Translations under genes and position numbers: made by a program
Shown: positions 4,762-50,063 of the stretch, piece by piece
Numbering within the stretch: position 1 is the stretch's first letter
Layout of the letters: each line of letters begins with the position of its first letter
Assembly: GCF_016907815.1 (NCBI RefSeq)
Contig: NZ_JAFBCQ010000001.1
Coordinates: 2,914,001 to 2,978,000 of the forward strand
Direction of reading: 5' to 3'
Source: Microbacterium aurum
GTDB lineage: Bacteria > Actinomycetota > Actinomycetes > Actinomycetales > Microbacteriaceae
DNA: 64,000 nt
Notes under the pieces: generated by a model
The model's input: only the letters and a program-made list of their open reading frames with translations
Told to the model about the DNA's origin: nothing
The model's database searches: none

Positions 4762-5607
4762 ATGTTCAGATCCCGTCCGCCGGACGCCGGCCCTGCCCCC
4801 TCCTTCTTCCGCACCCGCGACCTGGTGGAACGGGGATGGCGCGGCCGCGACATCCGCACCGCCGCCGGCCTCGGCAGGCTGGTCACGGTGCGCCGCGGCG
4901 CCTACTGCACGGCCGACACCGACGCCGACTGCGTCGAGGCGGGACGGACGCGCGGGCGGCTCGCCTGCATCTCGGAGCTGCGCCGACGCGGCGTCTTCGT
5001 CCTGGACCATTCGACACGGCACATCCACGTCACCGCGGACGCGGCGCGCCTGCCCGCGATGAGCGCGCACGGCCGTGTACATCGCGAGCAGCTGTCGCGC
5101 ACGCCGCATCCGCGGTCGATGAGCGTGGACGTCTTCGACGCGCTGCGTGAGGCGGTCCTCTGCCAGCCACCCCGCGCGGCGATCGCCACCATCGACTCGG
5201 CGCTGCACCTCGGCGTCTTCCCGCACGACGAGTTGGACGAACTGTTCGCGGCTCTGCCCCGCCGCTACCGGCGGCTGCGGCGACTCCTGGATTCACGGGC
5301 GGAATCGGGGCCGGAGACCCTCATGCGCTTGATCCTGCGTTCGATCGGATGCGTCTTCGACATCCAGGTCGTGATCGCCGGCGTCGGGAGGGTCGACTTC
5401 GTGGTGAACGGCTGGCTCATCATCGAGTGCGACAGCGAGGAGCACCACTCGTCGTGGGCGGACCAGAAGCGGGACCGGCGCCGCGACCAGGCGGCCGCCG
5501 CCCGCGGATACGCCACCTACCGGCCGATCGCCGAAGACATCCTCTGGCATTCGGACGAGGTCCGAGCCGCGATCGTCGGCCTGCTCGCGGCTCGCGCGAC
5601 CATCTGA
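4762..5607 (+). CDS. AbiEi-like wHTH plus DUF559 (Vsr-fold nuclease-like) protein
   Basis: This 281-residue protein joins an N-terminal winged-helix-like part (FFRTRDLVERGWRGRDIRTA, then LVTVRRGAYC, about residues 14-55), of the type seen in AbiEi antitoxins, to a C-terminal DUF559 domain of the Vsr/PD-(D/E)XK fold (about 190-281). The nuclease-like core shows VDFVVNGWLIIECDSEEHH, with the candidate acidic residues Asp and Glu, then a basic helix [15 protein letters not shown]. The family is frequent in Microbacteriaceae and no function is proven. It is bracketed by family 1 palindromes: three upstream and one 17 bases downstream. Confidence 0.75.
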   Translation: MFRSRPPDAGPAPSFFRTRDLVERGWRGRDIRTAAGLGRLVTVRRGAYCTADTDADCVEAGRTRGRLACISELRRRGVFVLDHSTRHIHVTADAARLPAMSAHGRVHREQLSRTPHPRSMSVDVFDALREAVLCQPPRAAIATIDSALHLGVFPHDELDELFAALPRRYRRLRRLLDSRAESGPETLMRLILRSIGCVFDIQVVIAGVGRVDFVVNGWLIIECDSEEHHSSWADQKRDRRRDQAAAARGYATYRPIAEDILWHSDEVRAAIVGLLAARATI

Positions 5608-5623
5608 CGGTGCGATCGTGTCG

Positions 5624-5691
5624 CGAAAGCAGGCTGAACAGTGCGTCGGGACGCTCAAGGGCGGCTGCGGGGTCGATTCAGCCTGCTTTCG
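5624..5691. repeat. Palindromic repeat family 1, copy 4
   Basis: 15-base arms (CGAAAGCAGGCTGAA and complement) enclose an unrelated loop. The arms alone are conserved with copies 1-3, so the arms rather than the loop appear to be the maintained part. It lies just after the stop of the DUF559 gene. Confidence 0.88.
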
Positions 5692-5702
5692 GAACAGCAT
5701 CG

Positions 5703-5772
5703 CCCCGGAACGGGATCGGGTGCGGGCCGCGGGTCGGCCGCGGAGCGCGGGCAGACCCCGGAACGGGATCGG
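5703..5772. repeat. GC-rich direct repeat in the gap before osmC
   Basis: The 17-mer CCCCGGAACGGGATCGG occurs at 5703-5719 and again at 5756-5772, in a run of GCGGGCCGCGG-type sequence. No gene is visible in 5692-5857. Confidence 0.6.
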
Positions 5773-5857
5773 CCGCGGGCCACAGGGCGCGGGCCGCGAC
5801 CACGGAGCGCTGGCCGCGGCGGCGCGCCGCGCACCGCGGCACGCGCAGCGCGGCGCG

Positions 5858-6334
5858 TCAGTCGCCGAGGGCGGTGACCACGGCGTCGTGGCGCACCGGG
5901 AAGTTCACCGAGTTGGCGATGAAACACCACTCGTGAGCCTGCGCGTGCGCGGCCTCGGCCGGCTCGATCATGGATGCCGACGCCACCACGACCCGCGGAT
6001 GCAGCGTCACCTCGGTGAACGCTCCGCCGCCGCGGCCGTCCTCGGTCATGAGCCCCGTCGCGTCGTCGTCGTAGGAGACGACGACGACGCCCGCCTGCAC
6101 GCACGCGTGCAGGTACGACAGCAGGTGACACTCCGACAGCGCCGCCAGCAGCAGATCCTCCGGGTTCCACTTCGCGCCGTCGCCGCGGAACGGGCGGTCG
6201 CTCGAGGCGGCGAGGTCCGGCTTGCCGTCGATCGAGATCGTGACCGAGCGGTCGTAGTCGCGGTATCCGCTCGTCCCGGTTCCCCGGTTGCCCGTCCAGC
6301 GACTGCGCAGCGCGTAGCGATGTTCACCCAGCAT
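5858..6334 (-). CDS. OsmC/Ohr-family peroxide reductase
   Basis: This 158-residue OsmC-fold protein probably reduces organic hydroperoxides with two cysteines. The first conserved cysteine is in SECHLLSYLHAC and the second in EWCFIANSVNFPV; an N-terminal strand region with SRWTGNRGTGTSGYRDY precedes them. The open frame extends further upstream, but MLGEHRYALRSRW is the natural start, because the extra 28 residues come from a tandem CACC repeat. OsmC proper and other YhfA-like members share these features, so the subfamily is not fixed. Confidence 0.85.
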   Translation of the reverse strand: MLGEHRYALRSRWTGNRGTGTSGYRDYDRSVTISIDGKPDLAASSDRPFRGDGAKWNPEDLLLAALSECHLLSYLHACVQAGVVVVSYDDDATGLMTEDGRGGGAFTEVTLHPRVVVASASMIEPAEAAHAQAHEWCFIANSVNFPVRHDAVVTALGD

Positions 6335-6375
6335 CCGGTCAGTCTGCCACGGTGCCAGGATGCACGGGCGGATGC

Positions 6376-6430
6376 CGGCACCACCCCGGCACCACCCCGG
6401 CACCCCCGGCACCACCACGGCACCACCACT
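6376..6430. repeat. Short tandem repeat of GGCACCACCCC/GGCACCACCA units
   Basis: Five imperfect units of about 11 bases lie in the divergent promoter region between osmC and the asparaginase gene. They precede the asparaginase -10 box by about 30 bases. The role is unknown; a slippage-prone spacer is possible. Confidence 0.75.
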
Positions 6431-6462
6431 CGGGCCACCCCGGCCGGAACGGCGCGCGACGA

Positions 6463-6468
6463 TAGGCT
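6463..6468 (+). promoter_or_regulatory. -10 element for the asparaginase gene
   Basis: TAGGCT is followed six bases later by the GTG start, fitting a leaderless message. Confidence 0.5.
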
Positions 6469-6474
6469 GACGGG

Positions 6475-7464
6475 GTGGCAGAGACCTTTCCGGTGACCGG
6501 GGCCGTCGAGCTCGCCGTCGTCGAGCGCAGCGGCTTCGTGGAGTCGCGCCACGCGGGAGCGGCGATCGTGCTCGACCCGGACGGCGTGGTCCAGACCACG
6601 CTCGGCGACGTCGACACGCCGATCCTCCCCCGCTCCAGCCTCAAGCCGCTGCAGGCCCTCGGGTGCCTCACCGCCGGCGTGACGCTGGACGGCGAGCGCC
6701 TCGCCCTGGCCACCGCGAGCCACGCGGGCACCGACCGTCACGTCGCCGTCGTCCGCGACATCCTCCACTCCGCCGGCCTCGGCGAAGACGACCTCGGCTG
6801 CCCGCCGTCCTGGCCCACCGATACCGCCACTCGCGACGAGATGGTCCGCGAGCTCGGCCGGCCGGAGCGGGTGCGCATGAACTGCTCCGGCAAGCACGCC
6901 ACCATGCTGGCCGCTTGCGTCGCGCGCGGCTGGGACACCGCCGGGTATCTCGATCCCGAGCATCCGCTGCAGCTGCACATCCGCGAGGTCGTCGAGCGGC
7001 TGACGGGCGCGAAGGTCGCCGCGACCGCCGTCGACGGCTGCGGCGCACCCGTGCACGCGATGAGCCTGACGGCGCTCGCGCGCGCCGCGCACCGCATCGG
7101 CACCGCCTCCGAACGCTCGCCGTTCGGGCTGCACCGTCTGGCGGGCACGCTCGTGCGGGCGGTGCGCGAGAACCCGTGGGCCATCGACGGCCCTGGACGC
7201 CCCGACACGATCGCCATCGAGCGCCTGGGCGTGTTCGCGAAGGGCGGCGCCGAAGGCGTCATGATCATGACCGCGCCGAACGGGGTGACCGTCGCCCTCA
7301 AGGTGCTCGACGGCAGCGGACGCGCCGCGACCGCCATCGCCCTCACGCTGCTCGTACGCGCCGGCGCCCTCGCGGCCGCCGATGTCGCCGGCGTGATCAC
7401 CCAGCTTCCATTGACCGTGACCGGCGGCGGAAACCCGGTCGGCCTCATCCGGCCGACGATATAG
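6475..7464 (+). CDS. L-asparaginase of the rhizobial-type (AnsA-II-like) family
   Basis: The protein has 329 residues and a GTG start. It lacks the bacterial type I/II TGGTI motif. Instead it matches the distinct asparaginase family typified by Rhizobium etli, with SSLKPLQALGCL (residues about 45-56), CPPSWPTD, RMNCSGKHATMLAAC and VDGCGAPVHAMSL. The serine/lysine and cysteine blocks of that family are therefore present. It would hydrolyse asparagine to aspartate and ammonia. Alanine dehydrogenase follows 44 bases later on the same strand, so the pair may serve amino-acid nitrogen use. Confidence 0.85.
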   Translation: MAETFPVTGAVELAVVERSGFVESRHAGAAIVLDPDGVVQTTLGDVDTPILPRSSLKPLQALGCLTAGVTLDGERLALATASHAGTDRHVAVVRDILHSAGLGEDDLGCPPSWPTDTATRDEMVRELGRPERVRMNCSGKHATMLAACVARGWDTAGYLDPEHPLQLHIREVVERLTGAKVAATAVDGCGAPVHAMSLTALARAAHRIGTASERSPFGLHRLAGTLVRAVRENPWAIDGPGRPDTIAIERLGVFAKGGAEGVMIMTAPNGVTVALKVLDGSGRAATAIALTLLVRAGALAAADVAGVITQLPLTVTGGGNPVGLIRPTI

Positions 7465-40655: not shown

Positions 40656-40671
40656 TAACCTCGATCGGTAC

Positions 40672-40744
40672 GCCTCCGTAGCTCAGGGGATAGAGCGTTG
40701 GTTTCCGGTACCAAAGGTCGCAGGTTCGATTCCTGTCGGGGGCA
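40672..40744 (+). tRNA. tRNA-Arg (anticodon CCG)
   Basis: The cloverleaf is complete: acceptor GCCTCCG with CGGGGGC, a D arm GCTCAGGGGATAGAGC, and an anticodon stem TTGGT/ACCAA around the loop TTCCGGT (anticodon CCG at 40705-40707, reading CGG). The T arm is CAGGTTCGATTCCTG. The CCA end is not encoded. Accessory DNA begins directly after it. Confidence 0.95.
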
Positions 40745-40754
40745 CAACAACCGT

Positions 40755-40783
40755 AAGGGGACTCGGGCAACCGGGTCCCCTTT
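40755..40783 (+). terminator. Intrinsic terminator after tRNA-Arg
   Basis: AAGGGGACTCGG pairs with CCGGGTCCCCTT around GCAA and is followed by T residues. This is a normal terminator for the tRNA transcript. Confidence 0.8.
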
Positions 40784-40884
40784 GGTGTAGACGTCACTGC
40801 ATCCCATCACGTCTCACTGCCGCGCTGCGCCCCTGGATGGGCGACACGATCCCCGGCGTGCGCGGCGGCTGACAACGACAAAGA

Positions 40885-40917
40885 CGCCCCCTCCCGTCCG
40901 AAGACGAGAGAGGGGCG
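40885..40917. terminator. Hairpin with unclear owner
   Basis: CGCCCCCTCCCGTC pairs with GACGAGAGAGGGGCG around CGAA, with one bulge. It has the look of a terminator or attenuator but no gene ends here. Apart from this hairpin and the tRNA terminator nothing is seen in 40784-41061. Confidence 0.45.
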
Positions 40918-41061
40918 GCGGGCCGAACTGGGTTCGCCAGCGCGGGGAGGGTCGAGCTGAACTTTCGTGTTCGAGCGTTGTGTTGCGCGGATGATTCAGG
41001 AGCGTAAACCAAGGACGCGACGCGTAAGTGCACCGGTTCCGCCATCCTGACTACGCGGCGC

Positions 41062-41199
41062 TCACACTGCGACTCCGGGATGCGGGTGACCCGCGAGCGT
41101 GCGCTGGAGGTTGCGGGCGAGCTTGCCGAACACGGTCACGTCGACCGGGTCGAACATCACGACGCGGCCCGTTCGCCACTGTGATTCACTCGGTGGCAT
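41062..41199 (-). CDS. Possible 45-residue protein, unknown
   Basis: An ATG inside the palindrome GCATGC, shared with the start of the opposite AIPR fragment, opens 45 codons: MPPSESQWRTGRVVMFDP through GKLARNLQRTLAGHPHPGVAV. The composition looks protein-like (hydrophobic strand, then an amphipathic basic helix), better than the overlapping plus-strand frame of 34 codons. It may be a small gene or the remnant of a longer one. No family is recognised. Confidence 0.3.
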   Translation of the reverse strand: MPPSESQWRTGRVVMFDPVDVTVFGKLARNLQRTLAGHPHPGVAV

Positions 41200-41340
41200 G
41201 CCCAACACGCCAGATCAGGATGTGCTCGAAGCCGCGTTCATGGAGTGGCGCGCAGCGAACTACCCAGGAATGGCGGATGGGGATGCCTACGAGTACTTCG
41301 CATCCACTCAGATCCTCAAGGAATACTCGCCCTCGACTAG
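41198..41340 (+). pseudogene. AIPR-type abortive infection gene, 5' fragment
   Basis: These are the first 47 codons (MPNTPDQDVLEAAFMEWRAA, then AYEYFASTQILKEYSPST) of a gene of the AIPR family. They match the N-terminal pattern of a region ending in QILKxYxL before an acidic/glycine loop. The frame breaks at CTAG (41337-41340), where the IS701-family element is inserted. The 3' part resumes at 43877. AIPR proteins confer phage abortive infection in some bacteria. Confidence 0.7.
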
Positions 41341-42740
41341 TAGTACTTGGTTAGGTTGGTCCGGCTCTTCGGCAGTAGGGGCAACATGACATGAGACGGA
41401 TGACCGCGGTCTGGAGTTCGCGGAGGGTCTCGTAGAAGGTCAGGCTGCCCCGGCCGCTTTTGGGGCTGTGGTGAGGCGCTGTGTCGTGACGAAGAGGTGC
41501 GCCGCGGTCACGAGGGTGACGTGGTGGTGCCAGCCCAGCCAGGTGCGGCCTTCGAAGTGGTCCAGGCCGAGGCCGTGTTTGAGTTCGCGGTAGTCGTGCT
41601 CGATGCGCCAGCGGATCTTCCCAAGCCGGACCAGCTCGGCGATCGGCGTGTCCTCGGCGAGAGTGGATAGCCAGTAGTCGGTGGGCTCGGTGGCGTCTTC
41701 GGGCCATTCGACGAGGAGCCAGCAGTCGGGCAGCGACCCGTCCGGATTCTTGGGCAGGTTCCGGTTCGCGGGACGCACGCGGGCTGCGGTGAATCGGCTG
41801 GTCATGATCCCCTTGGAGCCTTGCCGCCAGGACACCTCCGCGAACGCGCTGGCTGGCAGCGCCTGGGCGTAGGTCTTCGCTTGCACCGGCGTGCCCTGGT
41901 AACTCGCCTGCGTGAACGGTCGCCCCGGCTTCCCTGTCGGGGTGGGTATCTCGAACCGGGCCTGGGCGTCGTGCAGGCTGGTGGATGACTTCACCTGCAC
42001 CACGTAGGGGATCTCTCGCTCGGTCAGGCCGGTGCGGAAGTACCCGATCTCCCCGTAGCCGGCATCACCGACCATCACCGGCGGGACAAGGCCCCAGGCG
42101 CGAAGCTCGTCGATCATCTCCAACGCAAGCTCCCACTTCGCGCGGTGCCGGACCGTGTCCGGGATCTGCGCCTTGACCCGTCGGGCAGCGACCAGCTCGG
42201 CGTGTTCGTTGCTCTCCGAACAGGTGTCGTCCCACGCCTCGGGGAGGAACAGTCGCCAGTCCAACGGGCACGACGCAGTGTCCGTCACGGCGTGCACGGT
42301 GACGCCGATCTGCACGTTCCCGACCTTCCCGAGCGTGCCCGAGTACTGCCTGGCGACCCCCGGGGATGCCGGGCCGTCCTTGACGAACCCGGTGTCATCG
42401 ACCACCCACGCCTCCGGCCCGATCAGCCCCACCGCCTTCCGCGCGAGCTGCCGGCGCACCGGTTCCACCGGCCACGGCGACGAGGACACGAACTGCTGCA
42501 GCTGCTGATAGTCGATCCCGAGCCGATCCCCCATCGGCTGCATCGACTTGCGGCGCCCCTCCAGCATCAGCCCCCGCAGATACCAGCCGCCCTTGGCCCG
42601 CTGATCCTTCCGCGCAAGCGACGCGAACACCTCCCCGACGAACCCGTCCAACTCGGCCCGCACCCGCTCGATCTCATCCGCCCGCACGCCGCGAGGTTAA
42701 CAGTCATCACGACCATTAACAAGAACCTAACCAAGTACTA
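41341..42740 (-). mobile_element. IS701-family insertion sequence, complete
   Basis: This 1400-bp element has perfect 17-base terminal inverted repeats (TAGTACTTGGTTAGGTT) and the 4-base target duplication CTAG on both sides (41337-41340 and 42741-42744). The CTAG-type duplication is characteristic of the family. It carries one transposase gene and is inserted in the AIPR gene. It looks intact. Confidence 0.92.
41440..42687 (-). CDS. IS701-family DDE transposase
   Basis: This 415-residue transposase has the catalytic triad visible as AWVVDDTGFVK (first Asp), MVGDAGYGEIGYF (second Asp) and the IEHDYRELKHGLGLDHFEG block (Glu). The N-terminal WYLRGLMLEGRRKSMQPM is typical of the family. It is full length, with no stop or frameshift, so the element may still be active. 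Confidence 0.93.
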   Translation of the reverse strand: MRADEIERVRAELDGFVGEVFASLARKDQRAKGGWYLRGLMLEGRRKSMQPMGDRLGIDYQQLQQFVSSSPWPVEPVRRQLARKAVGLIGPEAWVVDDTGFVKDGPASPGVARQYSGTLGKVGNVQIGVTVHAVTDTASCPLDWRLFLPEAWDDTCSESNEHAELVAARRVKAQIPDTVRHRAKWELALEMIDELRAWGLVPPVMVGDAGYGEIGYFRTGLTEREIPYVVQVKSSTSLHDAQARFEIPTPTGKPGRPFTQASYQGTPVQAKTYAQALPASAFAEVSWRQGSKGIMTSRFTAARVRPANRNLPKNPDGSLPDCWLLVEWPEDATEPTDYWLSTLAEDTPIAELVRLGKIRWRIEHDYRELKHGLGLDHFEGRTWLGWHHHVTLVTAAHLFVTTQRLTTAPKAAGAA

Positions 42741-43832
42741 CTAGTGTCCTGATCCGTTAATTCGTTTCAGGTATCGGGCGATGGAGTCGAGGATGTCTTC
42801 GGCGGTCTTGGTCCAGATGAATGGTTTCGGGTTCTCGTTCCAGGCTTTCACCCAGTCGCGGAGGTCTCTCTCCAGGGACTGAACGTTGCGGTGGTCGGAG
42901 CGTTGCAACAGGTCGCGGGTGACTTCGGCGAAGAGCCGCTCGACCTGGTTGATCCAGGAGGAGTACGTCGGGGTGAAGTGCATGTGGAACCGGGGATGCT
43001 TCTCCAGCCACGCCTTCACAGTCGGATGTTTGTGCGTGGAGTAGTTGTCGCAGACGACGTGCACGTCGAGGTGTTCGGGAACGTTCTTGTCGATCTTGGT
43101 CAGGAACTTCTTGAACTCAACCGAGCGGTGCTTGCGATGCACCGAGGAGATCACCGTGCCGTCGGCGACGTTCATCGCGGCGAACAGGCTCGTCGTGCCA
43201 TGCCGGACATAGTCGTGCGTGCGCCGCTCGGGGACGCCCGGCATCAGCGGGAACGCGGGCTGCGAGCGGGCCAACGCCTGCACCTGGCTCTTCTCGTCGA
43301 CGCTGAGCACGACGGCAGACTCCGGCGGGTTCAGGTAGAGCCCGACGATGTCGTAGACCTTCTCCGTGAACAATGGGTCGTTGGAGAGCTTGAAACCCTC
43401 CTCCAGATGGGGCTTGAGTCCGAATGCCTTCCAGATCCGCCCCACCGTCGAGCGCGACAGCCCGGAACGTTCGGCCATCTTCGCCCTCGACCAGTGCGTC
43501 GCATTCTTCGGGGTCGATTCCAGAGTGTCGACGATGACCTGCTCAACCCGGTCCACTCCGATCAGCGGCGGCCGTCCCGGCCGCGGCTCGTCGACGAGCC
43601 CATCGAGACGCTGCTCAAGGAACCGGGTCCGCCACTTGCGCACCGTGGGCAATGACACCAACAGCCGCCTGGATACCTCGGAGTTGGAGCTGCCCGTCGC
43701 GCATTCCAGCACGATCCTCGAACGCAGAGCGAGATCCTGCGCCGACTTGCGGCGACGCACCCACCGCTCCAGCTGATCACGCTCCACATCCGAGAGGGTC
43801 AGCTCGGGAAGCACAGGTCCTCGTCGCGACAT
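42741..43832 (-). CDS. IS630-family DDE transposase
   Basis: This 363-residue transposase has an N-terminal helix-turn-helix (RRLLVSLPTVRKWRTRFLEQ) and a second DNA-binding part. The catalytic motifs are VVLSVDEKSQVQALARS (Asp), VVCDNYSTHKHPTV (Asp) and FTPTYSSWINQVERLFAEVT (Glu). The last codon of the element is CAC. The stop TAG is made from the target-site TA duplication plus the next base. It is intact. Confidence 0.93.
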   Translation of the reverse strand: MSRRGPVLPELTLSDVERDQLERWVRRRKSAQDLALRSRIVLECATGSSNSEVSRRLLVSLPTVRKWRTRFLEQRLDGLVDEPRPGRPPLIGVDRVEQVIVDTLESTPKNATHWSRAKMAERSGLSRSTVGRIWKAFGLKPHLEEGFKLSNDPLFTEKVYDIVGLYLNPPESAVVLSVDEKSQVQALARSQPAFPLMPGVPERRTHDYVRHGTTSLFAAMNVADGTVISSVHRKHRSVEFKKFLTKIDKNVPEHLDVHVVCDNYSTHKHPTVKAWLEKHPRFHMHFTPTYSSWINQVERLFAEVTRDLLQRSDHRNVQSLERDLRDWVKAWNENPKPFIWTKTAEDILDSIARYLKRINGSGH

Positions 43833-43876
43833 ACTCCATTCTACAAAACTAGAAATGAATTAGCGGTGCAACACAC
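42744..43876 (-). mobile_element. IS630-family insertion sequence, complete, inside the IS701 target duplication
   Basis: This 1133-bp element is bounded by TA duplications (42742-42743 and 43877-43878) and imperfect 20-base inverted repeats (GTGTCCTGATCCGTTAATTC and GTGTGTTGCACCGCTAATTC). The left TA is the middle of the right-hand CTAG of the IS701 element. It therefore inserted after the IS701 element. Confidence 0.9.
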
Positions 43877-44460
43877 TAGTGACGTGGCGAAGGGGGTCGT
43901 AAAGAAGGCGAAGGACGGTGGCATCGATAGCTTCTACGTAGTTCTCAACGAGAACGAAATTCTCGATATAGACAGCCCTGTCGTTGCTGGCCAGGCGAGC
44001 GCCGTCAATGCGATCGCGCAGGGGCCTCGACTCGACGTCTTCGTGATCCAGTCGAAATGGAGTCCCAGTTGGAAGAGCGATCCCATCACTCGCGCTCGGG
44101 ATTCCCTTACACAGCTTCTGCCGAGGACCGCGGATGAGAAGTCGCTCGAGGCTGTGTATGAGACCACACTGCTCGAGCGAACGCGAATCTATCGATCGGT
44201 CTACACTCATCTGCTCGCGAAGTCCCCGGTGGTGCACGTTCACTTCCTGTACGCCACCAAGGGTGCTGAAGACATCCTCAAGAGCTCTCACGACCAAGCG
44301 AACAAGGCTGGACTGCTAAAGGGCGCAGTGGAGCCGCTACTACCCACAGGCGGCACCGTGGACGTCGAACTGCTGGGCGCCACAGCGATGTGCGAACTCC
44401 TCCGGTACACCCCGGCGACGAAGGTCCCGCTACAGTTCAGCCACGATCTCGTCCGAGCGA
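43877..44460 (+). pseudogene. AIPR-type abortive infection gene, 3' fragment
   Basis: The frame resumes as SDVAKGVVKKAKDGGIDSFY with the diagnostic DGGIDSFYVVLN, then DVFVIQSKWSP and a conserved VEPLLPTGGTVDVELLGA region, and is lost after LQFSHDLVRAT, where an IS5-like end is reached. The translated frame runs on to a stop at 44486, but the last residues are IS sequence. Family members are far longer, so the C-terminal two thirds are missing. The base composition is clearly lower in GC than in the core genes. Confidence 0.7.
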
Positions 44461-44530
44461 CTAGGGCGTGTCTCCTAACCGTTTGAGCCAGAGGGTGATG
44501 GCTCGGAGGATGGCGCCGCCGCCGTCGCGG
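44461..44530 (-). pseudogene. C-terminal remnant of an IS5-family-like transposase
   Basis: On the minus strand the last codons read AILRAITLWLKRLGDTP and a TAG stop, which resembles the end of IS5-group transposases (AxILxWLxRL.DTP). The rest of the gene is not present. It truncates the AIPR gene. The call rests on a short match. Confidence 0.5.
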
Positions 44531-44821
44531 CGACGACCATCACGAAGACCGCGACGACGACGTCGACGACGTCGCTGTTGATGATCGTCATGACGATGAC
44601 GACGACGATCAAGAAGACGACGACCGGGAAACGAAGAGAATCGCGTCAGCGGCTATGGCGTCCAGTGCGGTGGAGCGCCGCGGCGCTTCTTGCCCACCGC
44701 CGGGGATAGGCTTCGGCACTGCGGTTGCCTCGCGACGAACGTCAGAGCGGGCTCGGGCCGGCTCCCGCCCTATGCGCGGGGTAGACCTGCCCAAACCGCC
44801 CTTGAGTGAGCCGGCTTCAGG
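44531..44821. other. Gap with GAC/GTC triplet-rich low-complexity DNA
   Basis: Between 44540 and 44635 the sequence is nearly all ACG/GAC/ATC triplets; the minus strand reads VVVFLIVVVIVMTIINSDVV without a proper start. It may be the decayed end of a membrane protein gene. No convincing gene is seen up to the Fic stop codon. Confidence 0.5.
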
Positions 44822-46063
44822 TCAGCGCGCCGACATCCGGCGGATCACCGAGGCGTACGAGTCAAGGACCTCGAAGATGGCGCGGTGCTGCCAGACGCGG
44901 CCACGGCTCTTCCCCGTGGTCTCGGTGAGCACGTCCCGCTCCGTCAGCGCGTCCAGCGCGCGCAGCGCGGCCATCTCGCCGAGGCCGAGCGCGCTCTTCA
45001 GGTACCTCACGTTCACCGCAGGTTGGCCGACGAGAGTGGGCAGAATTTTCCACGCCGCGGCATCCGCACGGATGCCGGTCATCTTCTCGCGCGACTCGTC
45101 GAGCTGCTCGACGAGATCATCGACGAGCTGTGTTCCCGTGGTCGCCGCGATCCGGCTCGCGTTCGCGAAGTCGCGGATTATAGGGCCAGCGTCACCCTCC
45201 CTGAAGGAGCTGAGCGCGTCGAAATAGCGGTGGACGTCCACAAGGAGGCCGGCCGAGATCGGCACCGCGGTCGAGCCGACCACGCCCTTGTTGCGAAGAA
45301 TCGACTGTGCCAGCGCGCGGCCGGTCCGGCCATTGCCGTCCGGGAACGGGTGGATCGTCTCGAATTGAGCGTGGGCGACGGCGACCTGGACGAGCACGGG
45401 GACATCCTGTCGCTTGACGAAGTCGACGAGGTCCTCGATCGCACCGGAGATCCGGTTATGATGCGGGGCGACGAAGTCGGCCAGGCGGGGGCCGGCTTCA
45501 CCTCGACCGATCCACACCTGTTCCTGGCGGTACCGGCCGGCGTCCTCGGGCGGGAAGCCAGTCTGGTGGAGCATCAGCGCCCTGTGCATGGCAAGGATGG
45601 AGTCCTCGCTGATGTCGTCGGCCAGAGCGAGCGCTGCTTCCATGGCGCGCACGTTGCCGACGACGGTGAGCGCGTTCCGCTTGTCGCCCTCGTCGATCTC
45701 CGCGAGGGCGAGTTGCTTGGCCGACGTCGTCAGCTGCTCGATTTGTGAGGACGACGCGGACTCCGTGCGCAGCAGGATCGCAGTCATCGGTCCGAGCGCG
45801 GGGTTGTCAGTGCCGAGCTTCTTCTGTGCGTGCTGGTCGAACTCGACCAGCTGGCGGGTGGCGTCCTCAACGTCGGCGGCGTCTTCCGCCGACACAACCG
45901 GGGACCAGGCTGCGATCTGCGGCGTAATCGCAGCATCGTAGGGGCCGGTCTGGCGCTGCAGCTCGGCGCGAGAGTACAGCTCCGGCGTGCGCGGCTTCCA
46001 GTCGAGCGTCTCGTAGGAGACCGGGTCGATCGGGATCTGCGTGGGAGCCGCACGTGTGGACAT
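44822..46063 (-). CDS. Fic-domain protein (probable AMP-transferase) with C-terminal winged helix
   Basis: The protein has 413 residues. An N-terminal Fic-associated region is followed by the regulatory motif SSSQIEQL (about 100-115), close to the (S/T)XXXE(G/N) inhibitory helix but ending in Gln. The catalytic loop HPFPDGNGRTGR is complete (about 232). A C-terminal domain (about 330-413, LKSALGLGEMAALRALDALT) resembles a winged helix. This is the class II Fic layout seen in self-regulated modifiers. Its own promoter carries a palindrome that it may bind. No antitoxin gene precedes it. Confidence 0.9.
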   Translation of the reverse strand: MSTRAAPTQIPIDPVSYETLDWKPRTPELYSRAELQRQTGPYDAAITPQIAAWSPVVSAEDAADVEDATRQLVEFDQHAQKKLGTDNPALGPMTAILLRTESASSSQIEQLTTSAKQLALAEIDEGDKRNALTVVGNVRAMEAALALADDISEDSILAMHRALMLHQTGFPPEDAGRYRQEQVWIGRGEAGPRLADFVAPHHNRISGAIEDLVDFVKRQDVPVLVQVAVAHAQFETIHPFPDGNGRTGRALAQSILRNKGVVGSTAVPISAGLLVDVHRYFDALSSFREGDAGPIIRDFANASRIAATTGTQLVDDLVEQLDESREKMTGIRADAAAWKILPTLVGQPAVNVRYLKSALGLGEMAALRALDALTERDVLTETTGKSRGRVWQHRAIFEVLDSYASVIRRMSAR

Positions 46064-46072
46064 GGGTAAATC

Positions 46073-46104
46073 TTACCAACATTTAGCTTAACAAGTGTTG
46101 GTAA
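46073..46104 (-). promoter_or_regulatory. Inverted repeat in the fic promoter (candidate operator)
   Basis: TTACCAACA (46073-46081) and TGTTGGTAA (46096-46104) form perfect 9-base arms with a 14-base AT-rich spacer, 10-41 bases before the Fic start. Such A+T richness is unusual in this window. Autoregulation by the Fic C-terminal winged helix is a plausible use. Confidence 0.6.
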
Positions 46105-46416
46105 TACGACTCATAACAAACAGATTCGCGCGCCGTTCGACGGCCAACAAGTACCGATTAAACGAGACCGCGGTGCCGGGCGCGAGGCTGTGCAGCACCG
46201 CCACTAGATGCGACATTGTCCGTCCTGCCCAACTCTAGCTACGCCAGCCCAACGAGCTTCCACGTTGGGTCAGTTTCGCGCTCTCGCGCGCCCGCGTGGA
46301 CGGTCTTCTCCAGCCCTTCTCCAGCCGTCAAGAGCCAGCCCCACGTCCTCTCCGGCCGAGGTCAATGTGGTGGCGAGCAGAACGGGCTGCGGTACAGGCC
46401 ACCCCGCGCGGTCGCA
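46105..46416. other. Gap with no gene seen
   Basis: This lies between the Fic promoter and the end of the EcsC-like gene. Short open frames are present on both strands, but none has a start signal, codon pattern or motif. A small inverted repeat (CCAACG ... CGTTGG at about 46249-46267) is visible. Confidence 0.5.
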
Positions 46417-47145
46417 TCAGTCGGGGTCGGGCCCTGGAACTGCTAATCCAAGCAGGTCACCCGCGGCCGCCCCGGGCGCTTTTCTATCCCACTCATTCGG
46501 AAGGGGGCCAAGGATCTTTCGGCCGGACTTCACGAGAAACCAACCGAGCAACCCGTTACCGCCACCACCGATGGCGGCACCGATCATGAAGGGGATCTGC
46601 TTGCCGAGTACAAGCACTCCCGTCTTCGCGCCCCACTTAGTGACGAACCGGGGCCCAAGCACATGATTCACCCGCTTGATCGCTTCCATGGGGATCGCCT
46701 CCACGATTTTCCGCCCCCAGTACGGAACAGAGCGACCGATCACTTTTTCCAGGACCTGCGTCGATGCGGAGTTCCCGACGAGGACGGCGGTGACGAGTAG
46801 ACGGCGACGTTCGGCGTCCTCGAGGTGCAGGCCGTGGACTTCGGCAACTGAGAGCGTGTAGAGCACCGACGCTTCGAGGTATGCGGCAAGGTCGACCAAT
46901 GCTGCCGGAACCTGGACAAACCCGTTAGGAACAACAGCCGCCATCCCAGCGCCGGCCCCCGTACCCGCCACCGTCGCGATGTACCACTTGTCGAGGTATG
47001 CAACGAGTTCGGCTGGGCTCTTGTCCGGGTGAACTCGACGAAGGCGTTCGACGTTAGCGACGGCCACTGGTTGTTGCGCTTGCAGTGCGCGGCTCAGGCC
47101 GGACGACACCACCGCCCTGGGATCCAGCTTCTTGTGCTCGCTCAC
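46417..47145 (-). CDS. EcsC-like glycine-rich membrane-associated protein
   Basis: The protein has 242 residues. A helical N-terminal part contains VERLRRVHPDKSPAELVAYL; glycine-rich hydrophobic stretches follow (VAGTGAGAGMAAVVP, about 58-75, and MIGAAIGGGGNGLLGWFLV, about 195-212), with a Glu/Leu-rich middle. This pattern resembles EcsC-family proteins, whose function is unknown. It is alone between Fic and an unknown gene. It could be a pore-forming defence effector, but nothing proves that. Confidence 0.45.
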   Translation of the reverse strand: MSEHKKLDPRAVVSSGLSRALQAQQPVAVANVERLRRVHPDKSPAELVAYLDKWYIATVAGTGAGAGMAAVVPNGFVQVPAALVDLAAYLEASVLYTLSVAEVHGLHLEDAERRRLLVTAVLVGNSASTQVLEKVIGRSVPYWGRKIVEAIPMEAIKRVNHVLGPRFVTKWGAKTGVLVLGKQIPFMIGAAIGGGGNGLLGWFLVKSGRKILGPLPNEWDRKAPGAAAGDLLGLAVPGPDPD

Positions 47146-47235
47146 GCGACCAGCATCCCAGGCGCGCGCCTTTTCCGTAACAATCAGACCTTGTTATCCC
47201 TACTTCAGCGCGGTGCGCTGGTTCCGACAGTTAAG

Positions 47236-47867
47236 TCAAGACGCGGCCGGGTAAGCCCGCGCCTCCAGCGAAGCCCGTACCTGCGGAGGATCCACGGCAA
47301 CTCGCCCGTAAAGGACGTCATCGACTGTCGCACCATTGACGCGGTCATAGATCGAGATCCGCGCAAGCCGCACCACGCCGACCGACGCAGCGAAATCCTT
47401 CATCGCGTCATACAGCGCTCGCTGCTTCGCTCGCGCACTCCCCCGCTTCCCGAACACGCCGACGGGATCCGAAGCGCCGAACATCTTCTCGGTCGACGGG
47501 CTCGTCCACCGCCCACCGCCCCGAGCCGCAGCCGACTCGAACTGTGCGCAGTAGTCGAAGTATGGCCCAGCCCAAGGGAGGGCTCCGAGCCGCTTGATCC
47601 GCAACGTCATCGCCCGGTATCGGGTGAAGTGGAACTGTTCGTCGAGCTCCACCGCCAACCCGTCCCTCGTGATCAAGTCCCAGCCGCCAGGCGCGAATCG
47701 AGGATCCGAACGAACCCCGCCCAGTTCCTCGTAGAGCTGGCTTACCGCCTCCCGTACTCTGCGGGGAGAGCGTCCATCCGCAACGGGCACGTGCCGTCGA
47801 CGAACTCCATGCCCGCCGCGGATAGCAACGATCGCAACACTGCCGCGCGAGCTCCCGTCCTCACCAT
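47236..47867 (-). pseudogene. Unrecognised gene with a one-base frameshift near its start
   Basis: The main frame runs VPVADGRSPRRVREAVSQLY, through WDLITRDGLAVELDEQFHF, to a stop at 47236. Upstream, another frame gives MVRTGARAAVLRSLLSAAGM followed by EFVDG, starting at 47867 a few bases after a CATACTGT (-10 like) box. The two meet at about 47788, and adding one base there would give a 211-codon gene. ELDEQFHF and the basic/aromatic surroundings could belong to a nuclease-like fold, but no family is recognised. Confidence 0.55.
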
Positions 47868-48074
47868 GAGGAACAGTATGGCCGCTGCCGGGACGCCGCC
47901 CACTTCAGTTCGGCGCACCACCTGGTTCGACGGCCAGAGGATTATCGAGCCGAGCGCAGAGGATTACGCTCCCCGAACCCCCTTCAGACCCGAGGAATCA
48001 CGCGGCAAAACAGGTTCCGCGTACAACCCACTCCACCACTTCCTGCGTGTTCGCGCGTCGGCGCGTCTCGCGCG

Positions 48075-48149
48075 CGGCGCGTTGACCTGTCAGTTGTGGC
48101 TGCCTCGTGCGAGGGAAGCAGCCACAACTGCCCACCCCACGGCCTCGGC
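48075..48149. repeat. Palindromic repeat family 4, copy A
   Basis: This 75-bp unit has perfect 13-base arms, CAGTTGTGGCTGC (48091-48103) and GCAGCCACAACTG (48118-48130). It differs from copy B at only four or five positions, flanks included. It ends about 18 bases before the -10 box of the toxin-antitoxin operon. The remaining gap, 47868-48074, holds no convincing gene. Confidence 0.92.
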
Positions 48150-48178
48150 GGTCGATATCGCCTCGCTATCATGAGGTC

Positions 48179-48637
48179 ATGATGGTTCCCTACGGCGACG
48201 ACCTCCGGCGCCGCCGGCGGGAATCCGGGCTGACTCAGCGGGAGCTGGCATCTCGCTCCGGAGTTCCTCAGCCGAATATCGCGGCCTACGAACGCGGCAG
48301 GCGAGTTCCCGCTGCAGCTACCAGGGAAAAGCTTGAGTCGACACTCAGCATTCCCACTCTCGAGCGTGTTCGCGCGCTGCGAGGTCCCCTCCTTGAGGCG
48401 GCGAAGGCGCGACGGCTCGGAGATGTCCGCGTCTTCGGCTCCGTCGCCCGAGGACGGGCCGGCACGGGCTCCGACGTCGACCTTCTCGTCCATCCTCTGC
48501 CGGATGCCTCGGTTTTCGACCTCGCCGGATTCATGGTCGACGCGGCGGACTTGCTCGGCGTCGACGTCGACGTGGTCTCCGATCGCGGCACGGGGCCGGC
48601 GATCGACCACATCCGCGCGGAGGCGGTTGCCCTATGA
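48179..48637 (+). CDS. Helix-turn-helix plus MNT nucleotidyltransferase antitoxin
   Basis: The protein has 152 residues. An XRE-type helix-turn-helix (about 12-45, LRRRRRESGLTQRELASRSG) is fused to a minimal nucleotidyltransferase with RVFGSVARGRAGTGSDVDLL (GSX10DXD type, about 82-101). It is the antitoxin partner of the following HEPN protein, which MNT antitoxins neutralise by AMPylation in known pairs. The HTH probably represses the operon. The ATG is six bases after a TATCAT box, so leaderless. A second ATG follows directly. Confidence 0.9.
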   Translation: MMVPYGDDLRRRRRESGLTQRELASRSGVPQPNIAAYERGRRVPAAATREKLESTLSIPTLERVRALRGPLLEAAKARRLGDVRVFGSVARGRAGTGSDVDLLVHPLPDASVFDLAGFMVDAADLLGVDVDVVSDRGTGPAIDHIRAEAVAL

Positions 48638-48978
48638 ACGACCCCGGCGACAGGATCCCCGCGATCCTCGCCGACATCGCCCGCTTCGCGGTCACCGCCC
48701 GACGCGTTGCGGAGCGTGGACGAGACCGATTCGTCGACCCCGACGACGATGACCAGCGTCGCATCGCGCGGTCTCTTCTCATGGACCTCTCCGCGGCGGC
48801 CGACCGCCTGCCGGAGCGCTTTCGCACGGCTCATCCCGAGGTCGACTGGCGCGGGATCCGCGCCGTGCGGAACTTCATCGCGCACGACTACGACGGCACG
48901 GACGAGGAGATCCTCTGGCAGGCCATCACGGTGCAATTTCCCGCAATCGTCGCGGCGATCACCGCGGCGGAACGCTGA
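48634..48978 (+). CDS. hepT: HEPN-domain toxin (HepT-like RNase)
   Basis: This 114-residue all-helical protein has the HEPN catalytic motif RNFIAHDY (RX4HXY), near residue 79. It overlaps the antitoxin gene by four bases (ATGA), so the two are made together. HEPN toxins of this kind cleave RNA. The pair as a whole (HTH-MNT then HEPN) is a type VII-like toxin-antitoxin module. Confidence 0.92.
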   Translation: MNDPGDRIPAILADIARFAVTARRVAERGRDRFVDPDDDDQRRIARSLLMDLSAAADRLPERFRTAHPEVDWRGIRAVRNFIAHDYDGTDEEILWQAITVQFPAIVAAITAAER

Positions 48979-48989
48979 TACTCGCTTGA

Positions 48990-49064
48990 CGGCGCGTTGA
49001 TCTGTCAGTTGTGGCTGCCTCGCGCGAGGGAAGCAGCCACAACTGCCCACCCCGCGGACTCGGC
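48990..49064. repeat. Palindromic repeat family 4, copy B
   Basis: Direct repeat of copy A, in the same orientation and length. The 13-base arms at 49006-49018 and 49033-49045 are perfect. Copies A and B enclose exactly the HTH-MNT/HEPN pair. B begins 11 bases after the HEPN stop codon. Confidence 0.92.
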
Positions 49065-49149
49065 CTCGCGCGGGACATCATCCTGCAGGCGGATGCGGTT
49101 CACCCCGGCGGACGACGCGGTGCGCGCCGCGGCTTCGTAGCGTCGGAGT

Positions 49150-49389
49150 ATGACCACCGCGACGATCTCCCTCTCCCCCACCGGAAGGCCCACCGCCGGC
49201 CGGAGCGCCACCCCCGGCCGGACGACGCCGGCGGGCGCCACCCCGGCATCCGCCCTGTCGACGACACGTGCGGCCGTGCTGTCGGTGCTCGGCAGCATGC
49301 TGGCGATTGGCGTCGCAGCGATCGGCGTGCTCGTCGTGCCGATCGCCGCGCTCGTCGCGTTCGGACCGGCTCTGTTGCAGGCCTTCTGA
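49150..49389 (+). CDS. Small single-helix membrane protein, unknown
   Basis: The protein has 79 residues: a Thr/Ala/Pro-rich head (about 1-38) and one long hydrophobic helix (LSVLGSMLAIGVAAIGVLVVPIAALV split over two lengths, about 45-72). A TAGCGT box lies six bases before the ATG, so the message is leaderless. A strong terminator follows. These signals favour a real gene, although the product is not recognised. Confidence 0.6.
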   Translation: MTTATISLSPTGRPTAGRSATPGRTTPAGATPASALSTTRAAVLSVLGSMLAIGVAAIGVLVVPIAALVAFGPALLQAF

Positions 49390-49423
49390 GGCGACGAACT
49401 CGACACCCCGCGGGCACAACGAA

Positions 49424-49455
49424 GATCGCCCCGGGGCCGAAGCCTCGGGGCGATC
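49424..49455 (+). terminator. Strong hairpin after the small membrane protein
   Basis: GATCGCCCCGGGGC pairs with GCCTCGGGGCGATC around CGAA, with one mismatch. It is followed by ATCATC rather than T's. It sits 35 bases after the stop codon. Confidence 0.7.
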
Positions 49456-49560
49456 ATCAATGCGGTGTCGGTCTCTGTTTCGGGATCTCTTTCGAGTTCT
49501 TTCTGTCTCCGTTGTCCTTCGCAGAACCCAAGATACTCAGCGCCGATCCGGCGTCAAGAG

Positions 49561-49599
49561 TTCACCTCGAAGTCACCTGACCGTCAGGTTGAAGGTGAA
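49561..49599. terminator. Nested hairpin between the small gene and gdx
   Basis: ACCTGAC-C-GTCAGGT (49575-49589) sits inside TTCACCT/AGGTGAA arms (49561-49567 and 49593-49599). It ends 20 bases from the gdx stop codon and probably ends its message. Nothing else is seen in 49456-49618. Confidence 0.5.
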
Positions 49600-49618
49600 C
49601 GACAGGGCGGATGCCGCG

Positions 49619-49939
49619 TCACTCGTGGCCGACGAGCTTGAGGCCCACGACGCATCCGACGAGCCCCAGGATGAGCAGCATCTTGATGAGGGAGAATTGC
49701 TCGTCGCCGGTGATCATCGCGTAGGCGACGGTGAGCGACGCGCCGATGCCGACCCACACGGCGTAGGCCGTGCCGGTGGAGATGTCGCGCATCGCCCATG
49801 CGAGACCGCCCATGCTGGCGACCAGGGCGACGCCGAACACGATCGTCGGGGCGAGCTTGGTGAAGCCCTCGGACTTGCCGAGCGCGGTGGCCCAGACGGC
49901 CTCGAGCATTCCGGAGATGATGAGGATGACCCACGACAT
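49619..49939 (-). CDS. gdx: Guanidinium exporter of the SMR family (Gdx/SugE-like)
   Basis: This 106-residue small multidrug resistance protein has four membrane helices. Family motifs are MLEAVWATALGKSEGFTKL, with the proton/substrate-binding Glu in helix 1, GTAYAVWVGIGASLTVAY and the final GLVGCVVGLKLVGHE. The Gdx subgroup, rather than multidrug EmrE-type, is favoured by the guanidine-III riboswitch upstream, which is normally found with guanidinium exporters. GAAAGG is the ribosome site. Confidence 0.9.
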   Translation of the reverse strand: MSWVILIISGMLEAVWATALGKSEGFTKLAPTIVFGVALVASMGGLAWAMRDISTGTAYAVWVGIGASLTVAYAMITGDEQFSLIKMLLILGLVGCVVGLKLVGHE

Positions 49940-49952
49940 GACGTGACCTTTC

Positions 49953-49994
49953 GGCCAGTCTTGTCGCTCACCGGGTACTGAACCCTCGTCCGGG
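49953..49994 (-). promoter_or_regulatory. Guanidine-III riboswitch upstream of gdx
   Basis: On the minus strand the leader reads CCGGACGAGG, then GTACCCGGT, then GACAAGAC in order, matching the conserved core of the guanidine-III (mini-ykkC-type III) class, including the CCGG/CCGG stem and the pseudoknot GACAAGAC. It ends about 14 bases before the gdx start, close to the GAAAGG ribosome site, so ligand binding should govern translation. A TATGAT box at 50017-50022 lies upstream. Confidence 0.88.
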
Positions 49995-50063
49995 GACCGG
50001 TTGTGGTCCGCGTCCGATCATAGCGACCCGCCCTGATCAGCACCTGGGCACGACGTGAGGACC

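Follow-up and report, generated by a model that had tools for sequence, protein, structure and literature searches.

An AIPR/AbiU-type defence gene of Microbacterium aurum, very probably inactivated recently, with three insertion sequences at CTAG sites

We analysed a stretch of 64,000 nucleotides (here called the window; positions 2914001-2978000 of a single 3.41-Mb contig, NZ_JAFBCQ010000001.1) from the genome of Microbacterium aurum, in which a gene of the AIPR/AbiU type is interrupted by insertion sequences (ISs). Very probably, this was an AIPR/AbiU phage-defence gene whose inactivation is recent: it has taken up three ISs at CTAG sites, and a putative nuclease domain is left of it, itself split. 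Among the 120 relatives listed for the arginyl-tRNA synthetase of this genome, all that carry an organism name belong to Microbacterium, with 92% identity for the best of these; three further relatives are closer, at 97-99%. The three elements belong to three families (IS701, IS630, and an IS5-like type), and all sit at CTAGs of this one gene. Across 41198-44460, the order is 47 codons of the gene, CTAG, IS701, CTAG, IS630, CTAG, 193 codons of the gene, CTAG, and the IS5-like end, with the following features.

41167-41197, plus strand: 31 nt before the ATG, common with Microbacterium telephonicum (sequence match; similarity begins at 41167)
41198-41340, plus strand: 5' part of the interrupted AIPR/AbiU gene (47 codons plus two bases), with CTAG at its end (profile matches, intact homologue)
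41337-41340: left target copy of IS701, CTAG
41341-42740, minus strand: IS701-family element, 1,400 bp (inverted ends, CTAG flanks, transposase model)
41440-42687, minus strand: open reading frame (ORF) of the IS701 transposase, 415 aa, DDE_5
42741-42744: shared CTAG, both the right target copy of IS701 and the left TA of IS630
42741-42743, minus strand: TAG stop of the IS630 transposase, inside the shared CTAG
42744-43876, minus strand: IS630-family element, 1,133 bp (TA flanks, transposase model)
42744-43832, minus strand: reading frame of the IS630 transposase, 363 codons, stop-free within the element
43876-43879: CTAG joining the right end of IS630 to the gene
43881-44459, plus strand: what survives of the AIPR/AbiU gene 3' of the two elements, 193 codons (profile matches, intact homologue)
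44461-44464: CTAG, entry point of the IS5-like element; a CTAG lies at the equivalent spot in the intact gene (L085, 5581-5584)
44464-44525, minus strand: IS5-family remnant, about 60 bp, the end encoding the transposase C terminus

The uninterrupted gene exists in nature. A single scan of a collection of species genomes with the right piece, by a method that detects close relatives only, returned one locus, L085 of Microbacterium telephonicum S2T63, where the gene is a single 586-residue ORF (4857-6617) running through one CTAG at the position of IS701 and IS630. A preliminary description of the window, made from the sequence alone, had proposed that removing both elements restores the reading frame exactly and had suggested looking for the uninterrupted gene in relatives; the intact AIPR gene of M. 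telephonicum, whose ORF crosses the single CTAG, supplies both, and because this natural empty site exists, the earlier observation is stronger than sequence alone could show. The window and L085 are 97.7% identical over 41167-41341 and 95.8% over 43875-44464, and the similarity spans from 31 nt 5' of the ATG to the CTAG at the IS5-like junction; comparison of the 10.6-kb L085 locus with the 64-kb window gave no further match at E <= 1e-5. The M. telephonicum homologue is annotated as an AIPR family protein and matches PF10592 from residue 271 with 130 bits (cut-off 25). Since a TrwC relaxase, a Hypoth_Ymh protein, and a resolvase are its neighbours, this gene is probably carried on mobile DNA.

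The comparison also bears on the age of the break. Over 240 codons, the window copy and the intact gene differ at 27 sites, of which 26 are synonymous and 1 is nonsynonymous (dS 0.148, dN 0.0018). Neutral decay since the split would give about 40 nonsynonymous changes on the window branch (0.148/2 x 544 sites), and because only 1 was observed in total, we infer that the break came late, roughly within the last eighth of the window branch or less, an estimate from substitutions that transfer between species could distort. The 100% identity of IS701 and IS630 to their other full genome copies agrees with a recent break.

We searched the two gene pieces separately to identify the gene. The left piece (48 aa) matched positions 2-40 of 537 in the PADLOC AbiU model (E 9.4e-4) and the right piece (193 aa) positions 43-213 (E 2.2e-31), so that the N-terminal region of the model is present in both pieces, in the correct order. 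Against a profile of 582 positions built from 8 intact relatives, the pieces aligned at 1-47 and 49-237, respectively; 10 loci from other genomes had been extracted for this profile, and two (L017 and L023, with minus-strand matches and short frames only) were left out. A Pfam scan of both pieces found no AIPR match, by which the window copy falls outside PF10592; the pieces go unscored because PF10592, whose match sets in at residue 255-276 in the 5 relatives examined, covers the part now missing. The window copy comprises about the first 241 residues of 586, and the last 345, including the whole PF10592 domain, are absent. No PF10592 match at E <= 0.001 occurs in the whole genome, and therefore the missing part was not simply relocated. 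Thus, the predicted AIPR/AbiU identity rests on PADLOC AbiU and the intact relatives, not on Pfam. The pieces resemble the AbiU1/AIPR abortive-infection family (PF10592; PADLOC AbiU; NCBI "AIPR family protein") in fitting the PADLOC AbiU model, whereas the window copy differs in being split and devoid of the PF10592 domain, that is, a pseudogene. The gene is patchily distributed. In samples of 295 genomes from the genus, 398 from the family, and 396 from the phylum, the right piece found a match in 7, 9, and 2 genomes, respectively; four of the 7 matches in the genus are weak and have an internal stop, each count includes the genome's own copy, and the three samples overlap. Among viral contigs and plasmids, the gene fragment found no match, nor did the flanks 40746-41200 and 44530-44830 in plasmids (the latter with the BLAST low-complexity filter on).

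Both complete elements were assigned to their families by transposase models scoring above the cut-offs, with 410 bits for IS701 (NCBIfam cut-off 150) and 262 bits for IS630 (cut-off 100). The inverted arms of IS701 are 22 nt long, perfectly matched, and take in the target (41336-41357 and 42724-42745), and its two genome copies, the other lying at 1633862-1635261 of the same genome, are full-length, 100% identical, and flanked on both sides by CTAG. IS630 has 48-nt end arms that are 71% complementary and is present in four full-length, 100% identical copies including that of the window, all four placed as C-TA[G...C]TA-G with TA on each side. Furthermore, its transposase frame runs to the last base of the element, and the TAG stop comes from the target, as is the case in all four full copies of this genome and in 5/5 fetched relatives (L088 with one internal stop). 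IS630 is said to prefer TA within CTAG, a preference reportedly described by Tenzen and Ohtsubo in 1991. The four full copies here are likewise placed at TA in CTAG; in addition, the element here has a stop codon supplied by the target and a CTAG held in common with IS701. The two ends of the window IS630 differ (GTGTCCTG.. vs GTGTGTTG..), and in the five plasmid relatives that were fetched each end reads GTGTCC. DNA searches for IS701 and IS630 in 198 genomes of the genus returned mostly short matches of low score; among these, an IS701 end immediately follows CTAG at L057, and no element end was seen at the inspected place in L027 and L056.

The third element is represented by a remnant that is 84% identical over 62 bp to the end of an annotated IS5-family transposase of M. 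paraoxydans, and a genome search with it found no second match. In plasmid relatives, CTAG stands at this end of the element in 6/6 fetched loci (L100-L102 sharing the same flank) and at the opposite end in the 4 loci where that end was located, counts that the query favours, since it itself started with CTAG. In all six loci and in the window remnant, the transposase ends on the TAG of the CTAG. IS5/IS427-type elements with a CTAG target are known, and one of them, IS870, takes its stop codon from the target. The target-derived TAG stop in the window remnant and its relatives is of the same kind, whereas only about 60 bp of the element are left in the window. A Y-T-A-R target of any kind would yield TAA or TAG, so that target choice appears to fit the way these transposase genes end. 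Insertion followed by adjacent deletion would be the simplest account of the missing parts of both the gene and the IS5-like element. A low-complexity GAC/GAT tract (window 44540-44640) follows directly after the remnant.

We propose that IS701, IS630, and the IS5-like element share CTAG as their target, and that each insertion would leave a CTAG on both sides, so that an occupied site would stay open to the next element and stacking could follow. The IS5-like element would then have entered the next CTAG, with the rest of this IS and of the gene lost afterwards by adjacent deletion. The window copy would be nonfunctional, and only its nuclease domain, broken inside codon 48, would remain.

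The order in which IS701 and IS630 arrived had been regarded in the preliminary description as readable, IS701 having come first and IS630 having then entered its right-hand CTAG. We give this order an even chance: it is fully compatible with the sequence, but insertion of IS630 first, followed by IS701 into the CTAG at its left edge, gives an identical sequence, and the genome holds no diverged copies of either element by which to date the insertions. Because the first base of IS630 is G and its last is C, an insertion into CTAG rebuilds CTAG at each end of the element, and either order yields the same product, as a symbolic simulation of both orders confirmed and as the placement of all four copies implies. 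As far as the present letters go, the order is thus unrecoverable, also if the duplication by IS630 is counted as CTAG rather than TA. That the split is reversible in principle is likewise a misleading statement, because loss of the ISs would leave a gene without the last 345 of its 586 residues, including PF10592. The remainder of that description stands, namely, an AIPR-type gene (though not by Pfam AIPR), the stacked IS701 (41341-42740) and IS630 (42744-43876) with correct coordinates and families, the CTAG duplicated by the former and the insertion of the latter at the TA of CTAG (both flanks confirmed), the in-frame empty site, and a 3' end missing at the IS5-like end from 44461.

It might also be supposed that IS701 and IS630 form one composite unit that arrived in a single insertion, as adjoining pairs of the two recur on plasmids of other genera. 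We consider this extremely improbable, because the other IS701 copy and the three other IS630 copies of the genome stand alone, contrary to what defines a composite transposon, and no second composite pair was found in the genome. In the plasmid pairs, moreover, the orientations vary and the transposases share about 25-85% identity with those of the window; shared target choice alone may explain the recurrent junctions. These pairs were found with a 65-nt query across the IS701-CTAG-IS630 junction, which matched 37 plasmid records (30 listed). Eight loci were chosen in which the match covers both sides of the CTAG (H111, H112, H115, and H116 also qualify and were left out); they come from Corynebacterium callunae, C. 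glutamicum, Rhodococcus sp. USK10, S. vietnamensis, S. atratus, R. opacus (two plasmids, whose loci represent the same event as judged by their flanks), and Rhodococcus sp. DMU1. A single CTAG is common to an IS701-type end and an IS630 end in all eight. IS701 transposase sequence adjoins the junction in 7/8 loci, with a partial match in C. callunae and a weak one in DMU1; C. glutamicum is the locus without it. IS630 transposase sequence adjoins the junction in 8/8, incomplete in C. glutamicum, and the orientations differ among the loci. Chains of IS701-IS630-IS701 occur in USK10 and R. opacus. On the DMU1 plasmid (L099, 707-4169), IS630-like, IS701-like, and IS630 transposase genes follow one another consecutively.

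In the window, CTAG occurs 15 times vs 53 expected from shuffles (GATC, 538 times), and 4 of the 15 are IS junctions (41337, 42741, 43876, and 44461). It is conceivable, though in our estimate rather less than probable, that CTAG acts as a self-renewing landing pad for at least three unrelated actinobacterial IS families, whose elements would chain harmlessly with one CTAG between neighbours; in a CTAG-depleted genome, this would focus traffic on genes hit once already, for example, defence genes. Against its generality, the exact junction pattern was found in 1 of 396 genomes of the phylum, the window's own, a count that is too low, since, by eye, L093 and L099 depart from the pattern and the other 6 of the 8 plasmid junctions fit it. 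If the proposal is true, IS junctions would become a growing share of the targets available in a CTAG-poor genome.

Ordinary nested ISs likewise have one IS at the edge of another. The present case differs in that different families share an exact 4-bp target that is kept on both sides, and therefore nesting damages neither element and the order goes unrecorded.

The surviving part of the gene is predicted to be a FokI-like nuclease domain. The PD-(D/E)XK signature consists of a conserved acidic residue and a (D/E/Q)xK motif, and both are found in the N-domain of the intact homologue. The motifs DGGID (D60 and D64 of the intact protein) and QSK (Q105 and K107) are retained in the right piece of the window, and among the 34 aligned proteins, D60, D64, and Q105 are conserved in 34, K107 in 33, and E32 in 32. 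The 240-residue N-domain of the M. telephonicum homologue, modelled alone, gave a high-confidence structure prediction, an alpha/beta domain that aligns with nucleases and to which residues 1-47 contribute two helices. Searches of PDB sequences returned a single chance-level match for the right piece (E 0.25) and nothing at E <= 0.1 for the alignment of 34 proteins. We infer that the intact protein consists of an N-terminal FokI-type PD-(D/E)XK nuclease and a ParB-like nucleotide-binding domain and would cut nucleic acid during infection. A HEPN domain at the AIPR N terminus (PMC3506569) was considered and not adopted for this branch, since the model is alpha/beta and aligns with nucleases. 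In the portions of the literature on AIPR that were covered (alone, with nuclease, or with ParB), we found no statement of a fusion of PD-(D/E)XK and ParB-like domains.

Could the right piece still be of use as a free nuclease domain? An ORF of 206 codons exists that starts from a GTG in the IS630 end (43866-44486), and the structure prediction for the isolated N-domain of the M. telephonicum protein is of high confidence. This ORF lacks residues 1-47, however, and with them two helices of the N-domain; a simple promoter scan showed nothing on the plus strand and only one weak site on the minus strand, near the shuffle mean. Besides, the signal of purifying selection is accounted for by the time before the break. 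We thus regard continued use of the fragment as very improbable.

A Fic/SoFic-type protein (44822-46063, minus strand) adjoins the broken gene, with 71 bits for Pfam Fic and E 5e-67 for PADLOC SoFic, and scores under the NCBIfam SoFic cut-off. A tRNA-Arg(CCG) lies at 40672-40745 on the plus strand, about 450 nt ahead of the broken gene, and the GC content, about 0.70-0.73 ahead of this tRNA, drops to about 0.60-0.69 beyond it, which is island-like; no att-type repeat of the tRNA-Arg of at least 18 nt was seen within 40660-50000. Two direct repeats of 75 nt, 95% identical and 915 nt apart, occur at 48075-48149 and 48990-49064. Farther on, a Guanidine-III riboswitch (49950-50014, minus strand; 55 bits, cut-off 36) lies immediately 5' of an SMR-type transporter ORF (49619-49939, minus strand) that is SugE-like and under the curated cut-off (82 vs 126 bits).

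Each part of this case is of a known kind; the CTAG chains merit a wider count. Such shared-CTAG chains may provide a simple rule, which can be tested, for the places at which CTAG-poor genomes gather ISs. For any element that regenerates its target at its ends, moreover, the two orders with one product correct the common assumption that the order of insertion can be read from nested ISs. The locus would be an example of recent loss of a defence gene that is present intact in another Microbacterium species. Furthermore, the domain reading of AIPR proposed here, a nuclease with a ParB-like switch, would provide a testable mechanism for a defence family.

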